NCBI GenBank assembly: GCA_026018925.1
Contig: JAKSZU010000013.1
Location: 76,125,791 to 76,189,790 of the forward strand
Length of the DNA: 64,000 bases
Origin: Tupaia tana
Taxonomy: Eukaryota; Chordata; Mammalia; Scandentia; Tupaiidae
Direction of reading: 5' to 3'
Both the position numbers and the translations under genes were made by a program. Below are positions 2,889 to 62,531 of the stretch, piece by piece (positions within the stretch are counted from its first letter, which is position 1; each line of letters opens with the position of its first letter). Under the pieces are notes generated by a model. That model was not told where the DNA came from, did not search any database, and worked only from the letters and a program-made list of their open reading frames with translations.

Positions 2889-4156
2889 TTAATTTTCCTG
2901 ACATAGCACTCCCTTGAGAATTTCTTGGAGATCTGGTCTGGTGCTGGTAAATTCTTTCAGGTTTTGTTTATCTGAGAATGTTCTTGTGTTTTCTTCCCAT
3001 ATGAAGGACAATCCTGCCGGGTACAGTATTCTTGGTTGAAATTGCTTTTCCCAGGTCCAGCAGTTAGCGTAATGGCTATGTCGAAGGACTTCCATGTAGT
3101 CGACCGCAGTTCGAGCCCCAGACCCAGTGGCTTAAACTCACGCCGGGTGCATGTGCGTGTGTGCCCAAGATCCCGAGAGGAGAAGGGACTGTGGCATGGC
3201 CATCCCCTATGGGGGGAAGATTTCTCACTTTCTGTCTCTCTGTCTCTCTCTGTCTTACTGGCGAGTGCATGCGCCCTATAGAAAAAACCTCTAAAAATAT
3301 AAAAAAGAAATTGCTTTTCCCTTAACACTTTGAATATATTTTCCCATTCTTTCCTCACTCGCATTGTTTCCAATGAGAGATCTGCCATTAGTCTGATGGG
3401 ATATCCTTTGTAGGTAACTTGCCATTTCTCTCTTGCCAATCTTGGTATCTTGTCTTTGTCTGTGATTTTGTTCAGTCTGGCTATATTGTATCTTGGAGAA
3501 GATCTTCTTGGGTTAGTTCTATTTGTGGTGCTTTGTATTTCTTAGGATGGGATCTTTGAGTGCCTATCTAGATTTGGAAATTTTTCTTGCAGGATTTCAT
3601 GGAATAGATTATCAATGCCCTTACAAGACTCTTCACCTTCTGGGATGCCAATAATCCAGATGTTCGAATGTTTGATGGTATCTAGTACTTCTTGTATATT
3701 ATTCTCAAATTTTGGGGGCCATTTTCTCAGTCTTCATGGTGGATATTTCTAGGCCAGCAATATTCTCTTCTATGACTGAGATTCTATTTTCTCTATGATT
3801 TGGTCTGCTTTTAATACTTTCAAGGGAGATTTTGACCCCCTGTGTTATAGCCTTCATATCTAACAGTTCCATTTGATTCTTTTGTAAAGTGTGCAATCCT
3901 CTTTTAGATCTTGCAAGAATTTCCTCACCTCCTGGAATTCGTCAGATCCTTTCTCCTTTGTCTTCTGCAGTTCATTGTCTCTCTTCTCTTCCATCTCTGT
4001 TAGCTTCGCCATTATGAATGTTCTAAATTCTTTATCAGACATTTCCATGATTTTCATTGAACTGTCTGTGAATGAAGAGGACTTATTCTTTTCCCTTGGA
4101 GGAGAGTTACTTTCTTGCTTTCCCGTATTTCTTGTGGCCCTGCAGTGATTTCTAGT
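2889..4156 (-). pseudogene. L1/HAL1 ORF1 relict, broken by stops and a SINE
   Basis: The frame opens near 4,156 (MTRNHCRATRN...), runs through a polar, K/E-rich coiled-coil region (MEEKRDNELQ, EVRKFLQDLKE), and later shows the L1 ORF1p C-terminal signature (WQVTYKGYPIRLMADLS, RKEWENIFKVL, ILYPA, PDLQEILKGVLCQEN) before the stop at 2,889. ORF1p of L1 is an RNA-binding trimer (coiled coil, RRM, C-terminal domain). Here the frame is broken early (stop after about 100 residues) and the C-terminal domain is split by a SINE. It cannot be functional. Confidence 0.85.
3053..3306 (+). repeat. SINE-A inserted in HAL1 ORF1
   Basis: Perfect 15-bp target duplication GAAATTGCTTTTCCC at 3,038-3,052 and 3,307-3,321. 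The B box is GTTCGAGCCC. The oligo(A) tail contains AAAAATATAAAAAA. Confidence 0.93.
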
Positions 4157-4759
4157 CATGTGATGGATGGTGTGTTTCTTTCCAAACTTGAAGTTCAATC
4201 TGAGCATCCAGGAGCATGCAGAAAATGAAACAGAGAGAGAGAAACAACAGCAACGAAAACAACCAAAAAACAAACAAACAAACAAACAAACAGAGAAAGA
4301 GAGAATTAAAAAAAAAAAAACCTAAAACTAAAAATCATTTTAAAAAAACGCAAAAATTAGAAAACCGTGCAAATCACTAGTTCTTGGGATCCATGAAGAA
4401 GTCTTCTGAAGGCTTGTTTCCTTGCCTCTCCTGGGTTGGAAGCAGGAGAGGAGATTATTAACAAGATTAAGGGAAAGGAGGGGCTGAAAGCCAAGAAAAT
4501 GCTTTACCTTAAAAAAAAATCTTTAAATGAAAAATTACCAAAAATAATGAGAAGACAGAGACAGAAGTAGAGAGAGACAGAGATGGAGACACAGAGACAG
4601 GGGGCTTGAAAGGCTTCTTACCACTCAAGTTTGTGGGCTGGAGGCTGAATTATCAGTGGAAAATCTTCATTTCTCTATTTCCCTGAAATCACTACTTCTC
4701 AGGAGCCATGAAGGTGAAAGTTAATTTGATGCAACTCTTCTCGAGGACTTTATCTATTA

Positions 4760-9418: not shown

Positions 9419-11510
9419 AGAGTCTGCCATTAGGGCTGAGATCTAGTGCTTTCAGAGATAAGAGCGATGAAGATGTTCTGCTGAGAATTTGCCCAGCCTC
9501 CACCCACTCAGTGTCTAGACAAGTCTAAGTGACAAGTTGCCAAAATCTGAATACCATTTGGGTCCTCATATTCCTCAACTCCCACTGAATCTGTGACACA
9601 AAGGGAGAAAAACGTAATACCAAAGAGTCTGCAGATCACATCCTCCTGTGCACCTCTGATCACTGAGACTGATCGTCTAGAAATTAGGAAGAAACAAATA
9701 ACCGATCAGATCTAGTCATCAGCATAGGGGCACAAGAAATATGCAAAACCAAGAAAATACCTCATCCTCAAGGGAAAAGAATAACTCCACCTCATCCACA
9801 GACAGTACAATGGAACTCATAGAAATGTCTGATAAAGAATTTAGAGTATTCATAGTGACAAAATCAACAGAGATGGAAGAGAAGAGAGACAATGAACATC
9901 AGAAGAAAAAAGTCGACGAGCTCCAGGAGGTAAGAAAGTTCTTGTTAGAGCTGAAAGAGGAAATACACACCATAAAAAAGAGTCAAATGGAACTGTTGGA
10001 GATGAAGTCTATAATACAGGAAGTTAAAACCTTCTTTGAAAGTATTAAAAGCAGACTAGATCATACAGAAAATTGAGTCTCAGATGTAGAAGACAGAATC
10101 ATTGGACTAGTAAAATCCACCACAAAGACTGACAAAATAGCCAAAAAAAGAGAGAATAATATACAAAAAAATACTAGATACCATCTAGTATCCAAACATC
10201 CAGATAATTGGTACCCTAGAAGGTGAAGCATCTAATAAGGGCATTGACAATCTATTCCATGAAATCCTGAAAGAAAATTTCCAAACCCAGAGAGGCACTC
10301 AAAGATCCAAAACCAAGAAATACAAAGGACTCCAAATAGGACCAACCCAAGAAGATCTTCTCCAAGACACATTATAGCCAGATTGACCAAAACCACAAAG
10401 GCAAGATACTCCGACTGACAAGAGAGAAACGGCAAGTTACCTACAAAGGATATCCCAACATGCTAAAAGCAGACATCTCATCAAAAACAATGCAATCAAG
10501 GAAAGAATGGGAAAATATACTCAAAGTGCTGAGTGAAAAACAATTGCAAACAAGAACACTATATCTGGCAAGATTATATTTCATATGGGAAGAGAAGACA
10601 AGAACATTCTCAGATAAACAAAACCTGAAAGAATTTACCATCTCTCCAAGAAGTTCTGAAGGGAGTGCTATCCCAGGAAAACTAAGAAAACAGAAATAAG
10701 AGTTCTAAAACAAGTAAGAAAATGGCCAACTTAATGGTAGGGAAAAGTCCAGAGTAGAACGTTATCTTCCAGAATTTAAATAGAAAGATCAGACAACAAC
10801 AGAAGATAAAGTACATGAGTTTAAATTGGTGAAATAGAATTTTATTATTTTTGACTAAAACATTACTGATCTTTTATGCTTTGTTTTCCAGTGTTAAGAA
10901 GTTTTGTCTTCTTTCAAGTTATAAACAGGTCTATGTACCTACTATTTGAACATAATCTTAACAGGTTTCCTGCTTCAAGTATTAAGCAAAGTTCTCTTAA
11001 CATTTTTTGATGTTGATTTATTAAAGCTAAAACTGCCTTTCTTGAAATTAAAAAATGTATTTAAGAAATACCTATTTAGTAACCACAGTAAGTTATATAG
11101 CCTCAGGTATGTGCTATTTTGTAGTATATTCATTCTACCCACAGAGTTTCATGCTTAAAGTCAACTTTAGTTCACAGATATGTATATATCATTTGAACTT
11201 ACTATTGAAAGTACTTAAATTAATTAAGGTATTTTGTGAATCAATACAATGTGGGAAAAGATAAAGGAGTGGAAAGCAACTGCAGAAACCAGAGACAGGG
11301 TAGGAGGAGGATGGGAAATGGCAGAGGATGAGAAATAGTGAGAAATATATATAAATATATATGTATATAAGAAACAAGAAGTGGAAAATTATTTGTTGAG
11401 GACAACATGTATGATTAAGCCACTTTATGGTGTATTCTGTCTGAAAAATCTTTTTGTATGCTGTGGTGATGTCTAGTAAAAGTATGTAAAATAAATTAAT
11501 TAATTTTACA
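9419..11510 (+). mobile_element. Full-length HAL1-like (ORF1-only) retrotransposon
   Basis: A perfect 17-bp target duplication (AAAGGACAGGAGAATGC at 9,402-9,418 and 11,511-11,527) fixes both ends and gives a 2,092-bp element. Order: about 320-bp 5'UTR starting AGAGTCTGCCATTAGGGCTG, ORF1 relict 9,741-10,699, about 810-bp 3'UTR with a short (AT)n run, and tail AAATAAATTAATTAATTTT. ORF2 is absent. The half-L1 plan is known in mammals. Its 5'UTR is unlike that of the minus-strand copy at 2.2-4.7 kb. It must have been mobilised in trans by L1. Confidence 0.88.
9741..10699 (+). pseudogene. HAL1 ORF1 relict
   Basis: The first 111 codons (9,741-10,076) encode a polar, coiled-coil-like N-terminal part (EMSDKEFRVFI, EVRKFLLELKEE, KSQMELLEMK) and stop just after SRLDHTEN. 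Beyond the stop the frame resumes L1 ORF1-like, including KGIDNLFHEILKENF (RRM side), and shifts into 10,460-10,699 with MQSRKEWENILKVLSEKQL and TFSDKQNLKEF of the C-terminal domain. At least one stop and a frameshift make it noncoding now. Confidence 0.85.
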
Positions 11511-38490: not shown

Positions 38491-38819
38491 AGGCAGAATC
38501 TAAGAGAGAAGATGGTTTGGTGTAATTTTACCCTTCAAAATAGAAAGGAAGACCTGAAGTCTATTTTAAATTTTCCTGTCCCTATTTAATAACTTAGAAT
38601 ACTGACTATAAACACTGGTAAAATTTCTTAAATTATTATATTGCATCGTTAATTTCTTTAATTTTTTATGCCTATTCTGTCTGCTCAGTAAAACTTTATA
38701 CTAAAAATCTCTGGCAGTCAGCTTTTAGGATATTACATATATAAGGGAATGAACAAGAAATGAAATAGCACTTGGAAAATGTAGCCATGAAGAAAGGGAG
38801 GGAACTTCAAGCTAACCTT

Positions 38820-38973
38820 AACTTGCTCTGAAAAATGTACAAAGTTTGGAAATACTAAGGACCATGCAAATCTCCAACATTGTACCTTCGAAGGATAACT
38901 TGCTCTGAAAAATGTACAAAGTTTGGAAATACTAAGGACCATGCAAATCTCCAACATTGTACCTTCGAAGGAT
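38820..38973. repeat. 77-bp perfect tandem duplication
   Basis: Unit 38,820-38,896 is repeated without change at 38,897-38,973. Each unit has one ATGCAAAT octamer. No known repeat family. Confidence 0.95.
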
Positions 38974-58249: not shown

Positions 58250-58270
58250 AAAAATAAATAAATGGAGAGT
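58250..58270 (+). repeat. Left target-site duplication of the composite element
   Basis: 21 bp ending AAATAAATGGAGAGT, identical to 62,511-62,531. The insertion point lies in a TTTAAAAA context, as expected for L1 endonuclease nicking. Confidence 0.95.
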
Positions 58271-58525
58271 AACTGGGCCTCCAGCATACAAAATCCCACA
58301 TGCCCTTCTTCAAGAGACAGCCTGCTCCATGGCTCCTGAGAGCTAGACATGCTGGGAGAAAGGAAGATGTCCCACTCCTAACTGGGCCTCCAGCATACAA
58401 AATCCCACATGAACAGCCCTTCTTCAAGAGACAGCCTGCTCCATGGCTCCTGAGAGCTAGACATGCTGGGAGAAAGGAAGATGTCCCACTCCTAACTGGG
58501 CCTCCAGCATACAAAATCCCACATG
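58271..58525 (+). repeat. 5' tandem monomers, about 110 bp each
   Basis: Unit starts AACTGGGCCTCCAGCATAC at 58,271, 58,380 and 58,494. The first is 109 bp, the second 114 bp (extra AACAG), the third only its first 32 bp. A further partial unit (CCCTTCTTCAAGAGAAAGCC to GAGAGCTAGACA) lies at 58,744-58,796. The near identity of units suggests recent homogenisation. By analogy with mouse L1 5' monomers they may carry promoter activity. Confidence 0.9.
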
Positions 58526-58594
58526 GTAGGAAAACCCCTTTCATATCTCCTGTCTCTGAATCAATCTTGGTCTCTCTCTACCTCTCACTCCCTC

Positions 58595-58639
58595 TCTCTC
58601 TCTCTCTGTCTGTCTGTCTGTCTGTCTGTCTTTTTTTTT
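58595..58639 (+). repeat. (CT)n(CTGT)n(T)n tract
   Basis: CTCTCT, then about six CTGT units, then a T run, inside the composite's 5' region. The HAL1-like copy has a related CTGTCTCTGTGTCTCC tract. Confidence 0.85.
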
Positions 58640-58800
58640 AATTTTTGCTTTTTAGAATTTTTTAAGGTGAGGCGTCTTACAGGGCCCTTTGGCCCCTCCC
58701 TCCTAGGCCTTTATTTTGTTAATAATCCCCTCTGCTCCTCCCAGAACAGCCCTTCTTCAAGAGAAAGCCTGCTCAATGGCTCCTGAGAGCTAGACATTTT

Positions 58801-58824
58801 GCGCGGCGCGCTAGCGCGCCGCGC
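58801..58824. promoter_or_regulatory. Perfect 24-bp CG palindrome
   Basis: Left half GCGCGGCGCGCT is followed directly by its reverse complement, with no spacer and eight CpG dinucleotides or so, in an otherwise AT-rich 5' region. The HAL1-like relative has only TTGCACGG at this place. Regulatory role is inferred, not shown. Confidence 0.7.
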
Positions 58825-59041
58825 GGTTTTCTAATTTTTGATCTTTATTGAAATTTTTTTAATATCAATTTTTCTTTTTTAGACTTATTCCAAAGCTTTT
58901 CTCTTCCTGTTCTCTGTTTCTTGTCTGTTTTTTTTGTTGCTGTTGTTGGTATTGTTTCCCTCTCGCTGCCTCCTTTTCTGCACACTTCTCAACCCTCATA
59001 CTAAACTTCAAAAATTTGGGAAGAAACCGACCATCCACCAG

Positions 59042-59533
59042 ATGACTAGAAATCGCTGCAGGACCACAAGAAATATGGAGAAGCAGGAAAATGCCTCTCC
59101 TCCAATTGAAACGGATAGCTCCTCTTCATCCACACACAGTTCAAGGGAATTCATGGAAATGTCTGATAAACAATTCAGATCATTCATAATGGCAAAGCTA
59201 ACAGAGATCGAAGAGAAGAGAGACAAGGAACTGCTGAAGGGGAAGAAGAAAGGAGCTGAAGAGTTCTAGGAGGTGAGGTAATACATGCAAGATCTAAAAG
59301 AGGAATTTCACACTTTACAAAAGAATCAGATGGAGCTGTTAGAGATGAAGGCTATAATACAAGAAGTCAAAATCTCCCTTGAAAGGATTAAAAGCAGACT
59401 AGATCATTCAGAAAATGGAATCTCTAATGTAGAAAAGAAAATGGCTGGCCTAGAAAGGTCCACCATAAAGACCGAGAAAATGGCCCAAAACTTTGAGAAT
59501 AATATGCAAGAAGTACTAGATACAATTAAACGT
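59042..59533 (+). pseudogene. L1/HAL1 ORF1 N-terminal (coiled-coil) fragment
   Basis: MTRNRCRTTRN..., EMSDKQFRSFIMAKLTEIEEKRDKEL and, after two in-frame stops (about 59,267 and 59,279), QDLKEEFHTLQKNQMELLEMKAI and ERIKSRLDHSENGIS. The match to ORF1 ends at VLDTIKR, exactly before the part that would begin the RRM, where the GC-rich array starts. RNA-binding and C-terminal domains are missing, so the fragment may act, if at all, at RNA level. Confidence 0.88.
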
Positions 59534-62135
59534 CCAGGGGAGGCAGGCGGGGGCTCCGCTCCACGTGCCAGCGCGCGGGGGTGGGGTGGTGGGCGCGGGG
59601 GCTCCACTCCACGTGCTGGGGCGCGGGGTCAGGGTGCTGGGGCTCCGCTCCACGTGCCCTGTCTGGAGGTCCGGCCCGACTGGGGCTCTGCCCTGCGTGC
59701 CGTGGCCGGGGCTCTGTCCCGCGTGCCGTGGCCGGGGTCTGCCCCGCGTGCCGTGGCCGGGGTCTGCCCCGCGTGCCTTGGCCGGGGTCTGCCCCGCGAG
59801 CCGTGGCCGGGGTCTGCCCCGCGTGCCGTGGCCGGGGTCTGCCCCGCGCGCCGTGGCCGGGGCTCTGTCCCGCGCGCCATGGCCGGGGTCTGCCCCGCGC
59901 GCCGTGACCGGGGTGTGCCCCGCGAGCCTTGGCCGGGGTGTGCCCCGAGAGCCTTGGCCGGGGTCTGCCCTGCGTGCCGCGGCCAGGGTCTGCCCCGCGT
60001 GCCGTGGCCGGGGCTCTGCTCCGCATGCCCTATCCGGAGGTCTGGTCCTACCGGGGCTCTGCCCTGCGTGCCGTGGCCGGGGCTCTGACCCCTCGTGCTG
60101 TGGCCAGGGTCTGCCCCGCGTGCCTTGGCCGGGGCTCTGACCCCGCGTGCCGTGGCCGGGGCTCTGACCCCGCGTGCCGTGGCCGGGGCTCTGACCCCCG
60201 CGTGCCGTGGCCGGGGTCTGCCCCACGTGCCTTGGCCGGGGTCTGCCCCGCGTGCCGTGGCCGGGGTCTGCCCCGCGAGCCTTGGCCGGGGTCTGCCCCG
60301 CGTGCCGTGGCCGGGGTCTGTCCCGCGAGCCTTGGCCGGGGAAACTGCCCCGCGTGCCGTGGCCGGGGTCTGCCCCGCGTGCCGTGGCCGGGGTCTGCCC
60401 CGCGTGCCTTGGCCGGGGTCTGCCCCGCGTGCCGTGGCCGGGGTCTGCCCCGCGTGCCGTGGCCGGGGCTCTGCCCCGCGTGCCTTGGCCGGGGTCTGCC
60501 CCGCGTGCCGTGGCCGGGATCTGCCCCGCGTGCCTTGGCCGGGGTCTGCCCCGCGTGCCGTGGCCGGGGCACTGCCCCCGCGTGCCGTGGCCGGGGTCTG
60601 CCCCGCGTGCCGTGGCCGGGGTCTGCCCCGCGTGCCGTGGCCGGGGTCTGCCCCGCGTGCCTTGGCCGGGGTCTGCCCCGCGTGCCGTGGCCGGGATCTG
60701 CCCCGCGTGCCGTGCCGGGGTCTGCCCCGCGTGCCTGCCGGGGAACTGCCCCCGCGTGCCGTGGCCGGGGTCTGCCCCGCGTGCCGTGGCCGGGGTCTGC
60801 CCCGCGTGCCTTGGCCGGGGTCTGCCCCGCGTGCCGTGGCCGGGGCACTGCCCCCGCGTGCCGTGGCCGGGGATCTGCCCCTCGTGCCGTGGCCGGGGCA
60901 CTGCCCCGCGTGCCTTGGCCGGGGCACTGCCCCCGCGTGCCGTGGCCGGGATCTGCCCCGCGTGCCTTGGCCGGGGTCTGCCCCGCGTGCCGTGGCCGGG
61001 GTCTGCCCCGCGTGCCGTGGCCGGGGTCTGCCCCGCGTGCCGTGGCCGGGGTCTGCCCCGCGTGCCGTGGCCGGGGTTCTGCCCCGCGTGCCTTGGCCGG
61101 GGCACTGCCCCCGCGTGCCGTGGCCGGGATCTGCCCCGCGTGCCGTGGCCGGGGCACTGCCCCCGCGTGCCTTGGCCGGGGGTCTGCCCCCGCGTGCCTT
61201 GGCCGGGGTCTGCCCCGCGTGCCTTGGCCGGGATCTGCCCCGCGTGCCGTGGCCGGGGTCTGCCCCGCGTGCCTTGGCCGGGGGGCACTGCCCCCGCGTG
61301 CCGTGGCCGGGGTCTGCCCCGCGTGCCGTGGCCGGGGCACTGCCGGGGTCCCCCGCGTGCCGTGGCCGGGGTCTGCCCCGCGTGCCGTGGCCGGGGCACT
61401 GCCCCGCGTGCCGTGGCCGGGATCTGCCCCGCGTGCCGTGGCCGGGGTCTGCCCCGCGTGCCTTGGCCGGGGCACTGCCCCCGTGCGTGCCGTGGCCTTG
61501 GCCGGGGTCTGCCCCGCGTGCCTTGGCCGGGGTCTGCCCCGCGTGCCTTGGCCGGGGTCTGCCCCGCGTGCCGTGGCCGGGGTCTGCCCCGCGTGCCTTG
61601 GCCGGGATCTGCCCCGCGTGCCGTGGCCGGGGCACTGCCCCGCGTGCCTTGGCCAGGGCACTGCCGTGGGGCACTGCGTGCCGTGGCCCTGCGTGCCGTG
61701 GCCGGGGTCTGCCCCGCGCCTTGCCGTGGCCGTGGGGGATCTGCCCCGCGTGCCTTGCCTTGTCCGGGGCACTGCCCCCGCGTGCCGTGGCCGGGGTCTG
61801 CCCCGCGTGCCGTGGCCGGGGTCTGCCCCGCGTGCCTTGGCCGGGGCACTGCGCCCGCGTGCCGTGGCCGGGGTCTGCCCCGTGTGCCGTGGCCGGGGTC
61901 TGCCCCGCGTGCCTTGGCCGGGGTCTGCCCCGCGTGCCGTAGCCGGGGTCTGCCCCGCAGGCCGTGGCCGGGTCCACCCTGTGTGCCATGGCCGGGGCTC
62001 TGCTCCATGTGCCCTATCCGGAGGTCCGACCCGACCGGGGCTCTGCCCCGCGTGCCGTGGCCAGGGCTCTGACCCCGCGTGCCCTGGCCAGGGTCTGCCC
62101 CGCGTGCCCTGGCCAGGGTCTACCCCGCGTGCCGC
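59534..62135 (+). repeat. GC/CpG-rich minisatellite, 26-bp unit, about 95-100 copies
   Basis: Consensus unit GTCTGCCCCGCGTGCCGTGG plus CCGGGG. Frequent variants: CCTTGG for CCGTGG, GCACTGCCCCC (27-29 bp units), GCTCTGACCCC. Each unit has four CpGs and a GCGTG core. The first 150 bp or so are irregular G/C-rich sequence. Because neither strand has many T/A-rich codons, all six frames stay open for hundreds of codons (up to 830 aa); these are artefacts. Confidence 0.95.
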
Positions 62136-62510
62136 ATCAGTTGATGGCCATCTCTGCTTTCCTGAGCCGCATTCCTGAAACTGTGTTCCATGGAAATTCA
62201 CCTACATTTGCGGGGCTGCACGAGACCCACCCTTGGTCCAGCCCTGAGTGGAGTCTATGTTCCCTATTGTTGGGAACTTTATGATCTGATAATTGGAAAA
62301 AAAAAATCATGTTTATCATAAAAAATAATTAGAATAATAATAATAATGATTGGGGGAAACATAGGAAAGATATTGAATGTTGAAGCGGGGAGATTAATGT
62401 CTCTGTACTGACATGCATGGCATTCCCTTTTGAAAAAGCAATGTAATACACTGTAAAGTTATATGTAATTCAATGTAATAAAAAAAAAATAAAATAAAAT
62501 AAAAAATTAA
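62136..62510 (+). mobile_element. Composite 3' region with L1 3' terminus
   Basis: 62,136-62,290 (CATCTCTGCTTTCCTGAGCC, GGGCTGCACGAGACCC) is of unknown origin. 62,320-62,510 matches the L1 termini at 12.1-12.55 kb and 48.4-48.6 kb (GATTAATGTCTCTGTACTGA, ACACTGTAAAGTTATATGT) and ends in an AAATAAAAT-rich tail. Confidence 0.85.
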
Positions 62511-62531
62511 AAAAATAAATAAATGGAGAGT
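62511..62531 (+). repeat. Right target-site duplication of the composite element
   Basis: Perfect copy of 58,250-58,270, following the A-rich tail. Confidence 0.95.

Follow-up and report, generated by a model that had tools for sequence, protein, structure and literature searches.

Is the 4,240-bp insertion at positions 58,271-62,510 of the stretch analyzed here a solitary chimera or one member of a mobile family? The window, by which we mean the whole 64,000-nucleotide stretch of Tupaia tana DNA (contig JAKSZU010000013.1), holds this insertion between perfect 21-bp direct repeats (58250-58270 and 62511-62531, + strand), which are its target-site duplication, with a site of the LINE-1 (L1) type, TTT/AAAA, ahead of it. 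An initial annotation made from the letters alone had proposed a composite retrotransposon laid out like SVA but built from HAL1 and L1 parts around a minisatellite, and its coordinates, including the perfect duplication, were correct. From 5' to 3' the parts are 114-bp monomers, a long CT-rich monomer, a partial monomer, a CG palindrome, an AT-rich stretch of 5' untranslated region (5'UTR), a piece of ORF1, a variable number of tandem repeats (VNTR) of about 2.6 kb, a 3' piece of about 175 bp, some 165 bp of L1 3'UTR end, and an A-rich tail. We are highly confident that this is a non-autonomous VNTR-composite family of non-LTR (long terminal repeat) retrotransposons, presumably mobilized in trans by L1. 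Its parts and fixed junctions, its multi-copy status, the hallmarks of insertion, the traces of cap-type starts and splicing, and its linked subfamilies can be read directly in the copies.

According to the initial annotation, the same order of parts found only once in the genome would mean a one-off insertion and not a family. We searched the 2.95-Gb genome with three parts of the element and obtained 1,838 (5' part), 1,613 (3' part), and 1,713 (ORF1-VNTR junction) candidates, of which the best 40 were scored in each case and 20, 30, and 30 loci, respectively, were examined; similarity to the window copy, itself a member of each set, was the basis of their selection, and the sets overlap. ORF1 runs into the VNTR at all 20 of the 5'-selected loci, 19 of them within their own stretch and the other (L008, a record ending inside ORF1) once joined with the overlapping L045. 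The VNTR lies directly upstream at 30/30 of the 3'-selected loci (L024 includes only 52 bp of it), and ORF1 adjoins it at 30/30 of the junction-selected ones (in L072 the VNTR match starts 5 bp further on). Three of the 3'-selected loci, L030, L031, and L033, represent a single insertion. Exact tags for the ORF1-VNTR and VNTR-3' piece junctions occur 436 and 383 times in the genome, with 0 matches for either reversed-pattern control. A version of the second tag taken from the window's own variant had 18 matches, all in the youngest subfamily, and was widened to give the 383. Four contigs carrying junction tags (C66, C111, C220, and C231) have complete lists of both tags. Of the 31 junction tags there, 24 are followed 339-2,623 bp downstream by a same-strand 3' tag, and for none of the 31 does a 3' tag within 6 kb lie upstream or on the opposite strand. 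Among the seven without a paired tag in range, C231:68319950 has a 3' tag 7.7 kb downstream and C111:5800798 has the terminal 32-mer of the element 1.6 kb downstream.

The search for copies with target duplications of their own, which the initial annotation had proposed, also succeeded. In 24 of the 32 copies with both ends readable the duplication scores at least 10, and in 20 of the 32 the copy's own tail outscores those of all 31 others, each 5' flank having been scored against these mismatched tails (a first control, discarded and replaced, had VNTR stretches mixed into its tails). The window copy scores 21, while the same flank reaches at most 15 with the other 31 tails. A TT/AA(A or G)A site is found in 15 of the 24 copies scoring at least 10, the A-rich tails vary among copies, and some copies, such as L028, L035, and L040, are 5' truncated inside the VNTR. 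Target duplications, an A tail, and an L1 endonuclease-type site, as expected for an element of this kind, are all present. The same genome also holds potential L1 drivers, with open frames of 1290 amino acids at 26 of the 150 ORF2 matches that were scored.

The 5' ends give an indication of the RNA that was copied. Of 20 copies with a 5' end in the monomers, ten share one start base, query position 49 or 163 (= 49 + 114); 22 rows began in the monomer query, and L023 and L024, which matched the CT repeat only, were dropped. In the window, whose copy is not among the ten, this base, the commonest start of the other copies, corresponds to AGCCTGCTCC at 58319 and 58433. An extra G that comes neither from the target nor from the monomer is found in five of them (L067, L070, L074, L076, and L009) and is ambiguous in the other five; a G of this kind is left when reverse transcriptase runs on into the 5' cap. 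Three copies (L059, L064, and L074) have lost a GT-AG intron of the 5'UTR precisely, with boundaries CACATG|GT...AG|TTTGGG (the exon end is CACGTG in L074), and the HAL1 copy L085 appears to be spliced from the homologous donor. This optional intron corresponds to 58526-59014 in the window (+ strand), where the acceptor has AA in place of AG. The common start base, the extra G, and the intron losses make a capped Pol II transcript that starts inside the monomers, and is sometimes spliced, the likely mobile form. Taken with the target duplications, A-rich tails, and 5' truncations, the extra G and intron losses indicate L1 mobilization of such a transcript.

The tandem monomers described initially are indeed at the 5' end of the window copy. 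The short monomers, a putative promoter array (58271-58525, + strand), include two 110-bp stretches, 58302-58411 and 58416-58525, that are 100% identical at a spacing of 114 bp. They are followed by the long CT-rich monomer (58526-58743, +), with the GT donor of the intron at its start, and by a terminal partial short monomer of 54 bp (58744-58797, +) with 96% identity to 58411-58464. The CG palindrome, likewise reported beforehand, is perfect (12+12 bp, 58801-58824) and lies within the intron. The modal form of the family is found in 13 of 33 pattern-listed copies, the others being variable or shortened. Several copies have deletions that end within the palindrome, joining it to different points of the monomers, and hairpin-guided jumps of the reverse transcriptase are a possible cause. 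Another composite copy, L071, has a short additional segment, perhaps a cryptic exon, between its 5'UTR and ORF1.

HAL1 and L1 parentage, as first suggested, was confirmed for both ends of the element. The HAL1 copy L085, from the same genome, has a short 5'UTR, ORF1, and the HAL1 3'UTR; ORF2 was not found there and the VNTR is absent. The ORF1 of the composite (59042-59536, +, with the ATG at 59042) matches it at 85% up to 59536, where HAL1 continues. The RNA-binding domain PF02994 is found in the HAL1 stretch (E = 1.2e-31), where it starts with R56 (of RPNIW); the 84-residue piece of the composite had no match to PF02994, its other matches being weak and all under their cut-offs. Considering that the homology ends at 59536 and that the domain begins at this point in HAL1, the composite retains only the N-terminal part of ORF1, in agreement with the partial ORF1 noted initially. 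HAL1 is the donor of the 5'UTR and the start of ORF1, and L085 differs in running through the RNA-binding domain into a 3'UTR of its own without a VNTR. The complete ORF1 without ORF2 that characterizes HAL1 is not found in the composite, whose ORF1 stops short of the RNA-binding domain and also carries an in-frame TAG.

At the other end, the L1 3' terminus claimed by the initial annotation held for only part of the sequence. Positions 62310-62476 (+, start approximate) are 95-96% identical to the termini of L088, an L1 with ORF2 sequence upstream, and of L091. In contrast, 62136 to about 62309 (+) matched none of the L1 3' ends compared, namely, those of L1 and HAL1 in the window, two young intact L1s, and four sites on C111. 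A 3' end consisting of a single L1 piece was therefore rejected, since the alignments show only the last ~165 bp to be L1. The A-rich tail is at 62477-62510 (+), as described. Donors of the VNTR and of 62136-62309 were not found among the loci obtained from the 3' and junction searches, all of them composites, the best 40 candidates scored in each search having been filled by near-identical matches. L091 itself (G000:C111:10230750-10231800, minus strand) is a fusion of a U6-like sequence, which we take to be snRNA-derived, with an L1 3'UTR, presumably a chimera of the known template-switch type. Two young L1 3' ends, L086 and L087, are 98.5% alike and have a short 3'UTR unlike that of the composite; by eye, L086 adjoins an apparent antisense HAL1.

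The copies also have a common history. An in-frame TAG is shared by 42 of 44 records with a readable ATG (these include overlapping records of one locus, and 7 further records have no match to the ATG string), in most of them 75 codons on, as in the window (59267-59269). The two exceptions have a frameshift ahead of the TAG position, and a stricter pattern found 41 records, missing L080 because of a differing residue ahead of the stop. HAL1 has CAG at the same position, and the shared nonsense codon therefore points to one founder for the copies compared. A working truncated ORF1 protein was considered and rejected, given the common TAG. Except in L066 and L074, diagnostic bases on the 5' side, in ORF1 and the first VNTR unit, vary in step with those of the 3' piece beyond the VNTR, so whole composites, and not their parts, were inherited.

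The VNTR of the window copy (59537-62135, +) is GC rich, as the initial annotation had it. Tandem Repeats Finder detected a 25-bp unit in 95.8 copies at 59683-62134 (84% matches, score 3171), the first units, from 59537, are longer, and the GC content is 77-82% in 500-bp windows. Twenty-seven complete VNTRs, counted after dropping two duplicate records and all from copies chosen for having ORF1 and the 3' piece, measure 546-2,598 bp, with 80% GC, 12.7 CpG per 100 bp, and TCTGCCCCGCGTGCCGTGGCCGGGG as the commonest unit. Their first and last units are conserved, and in all 27 copies this VNTR of variable length sits between non-repeated 5' and 3' modules with fixed junctions. Conserved edges and a fluid middle are also how excerpts of PMC4432496 describe the VNTRs of SVA and LAVA.

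A reader of the window alone might suspect a one-off L1/HAL1 insertion whose VNTR arose afterwards by expansion of the interior, because the full order occurs there once and the HAL1 relatives at 3670-4713 (-) and 9651-10184 (+) have no VNTR match (the other relatives in the window are old L1). This is refuted by the many copies with their own target duplications, and the identical junctions at 30/30 and 20/20 loci, the hundreds of exact tags, and the common nonsense codon leave it practically no weight. Segmental duplication or tandem amplification would explain one insertion (L030, L031, and L033) found with common flanks on three contigs, which may be either a segmental duplication or unmerged haplotypes, and the long array of 5' monomers on contig C496. 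As the general means of spread, in place of retrotransposition, it is highly improbable in view of the differing flanks, the separate duplications, the A tails, the 5' truncation, the extra G, and the spliced copies. Some results do weigh against our reading of the element. The duplication score is under 10 in eight of the 32 copies, and in four more it reaches 10 without exceeding every control (L066; the A-rich L006 and L029; and L076, whose target lies in a common short interspersed element). An exact 24-mer from the 3' piece (62136-62309) has 1,117 genomic matches (reversed-pattern control, 0), a figure that as a count of composites presumes that the piece is restricted to them. The terminal 32-mer has 4,420 matches, rejected as a copy number and mostly non-composite, since the 3' piece lies upstream in only 25 of the 94 sites listed on C111; four C111 sites that were read, chosen for having no nearby junction tag, are L1 or short tails. 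The 3'UTR differs in the two young intact L1s compared, which are thus not the donors of the composite 3' end. Finally, the pairwise difference is 2.5% among 41 distinct sequences of the ORF1 piece and 2.1% among 43 of the 3' segment, values that are biased downward by the choice of loci by similarity and slightly inflated by the merging of identical sequences.

Membership in the SVA lineage is the other question raised by this layout. Excerpts of PMC5753468 place SVA in humans and apes and LAVA, PVA, and FVA in gibbons, as sister families sharing the VNTR and Alu-derived parts. Like the element described here, SVA is a non-autonomous composite that depends on L1 for mobilization and has, at its center, a GC-rich VNTR that varies in length and has subfamily-specific edges (PMC4432496), and the general plan of a GC-rich VNTR, a 3' module of its own, and L1-type insertion would favor common descent. 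However, the 5' end of SVA is a CCCTCT hexamer followed by an Alu part, whereas here it is made of HAL1 monomers, 5'UTR, and an ORF1 piece; its VNTR unit is 35-50 bp (excerpts of PMC5753468) against 25 bp; and its 3' end is the HERV-K-derived SINE-R, not a separate ~175-bp piece with an L1 3'UTR. LAVA is nearer in having L1-derived sequence in its 3' module and differs in a 5' region and VNTR like those of SVA, followed by U1-AluSz-U2-L1ME, as outlined in part of PMC4432496. Neither a CT-hexamer/Alu-like 5' region nor VNTR units of the SVA2 type were found. An Alu query had no match in 363 kb of sequence (overlapping loci, much of it element sequence) or, at E up to 1, in the 64-kb window, and a search with the 7SL family RF00017 (26 scored) was uninformative. 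The VNTR unit is no closer to one SVA unit than shuffled sequences are (188 of 500 reached its score). Descent from the hominoid lineage is thus very unlikely. The lack of an Alu match in that sequence also speaks against a hominoid host. We judge the element to be a recently active VNTR composite, SVA-like in its working and by the tested features outside the SVA lineage, and assembled independently, as first proposed, because there is no Alu match and the VNTR unit is unlike that of SVA.

Excerpts of a 2026 survey of L1 chimeras (PMC13174262) cite SVA as the example of a composite and contain no mention of HAL1, and those of a 2018 review of mammalian elements (PMC5857283) have one passage on composite origins, citing the SVA and LAVA papers. 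We found no description of this composite in the open literature, with subscription papers, preprints, Dfam, and Repbase outside the search. The SVA-like layout, described only from apes in the literature found, seems to have arisen independently here.

How such an element might move can be outlined from its parts. The founder would have joined a HAL1 segment, which reached from the 5'UTR as far as the point where the RNA-binding domain of ORF1 begins and already bore the nonsense codon, to a GC minisatellite, the ~175-bp piece, and an L1 3' end. Pol II would transcribe it from start sites within the 114-bp monomers, derived from the HAL1 5'UTR, which would act as the promoter. The RNA would be capped, sometimes spliced over the 5'UTR intron, and would end in the L1 3'UTR terminus and an A-rich tail. 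An L1 protein acting in trans would then nick TT/AAAA-like sites, and target-primed reverse transcription would produce target duplications and 5' truncation. Mouse L1 promoters also consist of variable numbers of tandem 5' monomers with starts inside them; the comparison is one of layout, and the monomers here belong to a non-autonomous composite.

The VNTR may have a function in this process. It could also be a passive passenger that varies by slippage, the spread of the family being due only to a strong monomer promoter and the A tail, and its range of lengths would suit this, as would the modest demands of L1, for which an A tail is nearly enough. On the other hand, all 27 complete copies, selected as they were for ORF1 and the 3' piece, keep a VNTR with conserved edge units, and in gibbon LAVA the key determinants of mobilization lie in the VNTR, according to excerpts of PMC4432496. 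We consider the passenger a serious contender, its chance being somewhat under one half. A VNTR that matters for mobilization would fit a wider proposal to which we give only slightly less than an even chance: that VNTR composites arose in mammals on two or more occasions, and that in this non-hominoid lineage the joining of HAL1 and L1 ends around a GC minisatellite converged on the SVA layout because a VNTR, placed with a capped promoter module before it and an A-tailed 3' module after it, is a device for hijacking L1, with the monomers also becoming a satellite array. A second family made from unrelated parts would turn the purpose of the SVA VNTR into a comparative question, in which the features common to both (GC-rich repeats, conserved edge units, and L1-type insertion) are candidate requirements and those that differ are not. 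The family also offers a map of start sites, a trace of splicing, and a link to a satellite for studying the birth and taming of composites.

This link is found on contig C496 (160,073 bp), where the 5' monomers of the element form a tandem array whose listed matches extend, with gaps, from base 1 to 81,087. A 7-kb stretch of it (L051, C496 12501-19500) is continuous array, about 93-95% identical to bases 1-527 of the element, long CT-rich monomer included, and has no ORF1, VNTR, or 3' matches. The array has a higher-order unit of about 450-565 bp. The 5' monomer and the satellite are of common origin, and either the array or the promoter may have come first.

Elsewhere in the 64-kb window, an Rfam scan gave 0 matches at the gathering cut-off, and a 77-bp unit at 38819-38973 forms a perfect two-copy tandem duplication.

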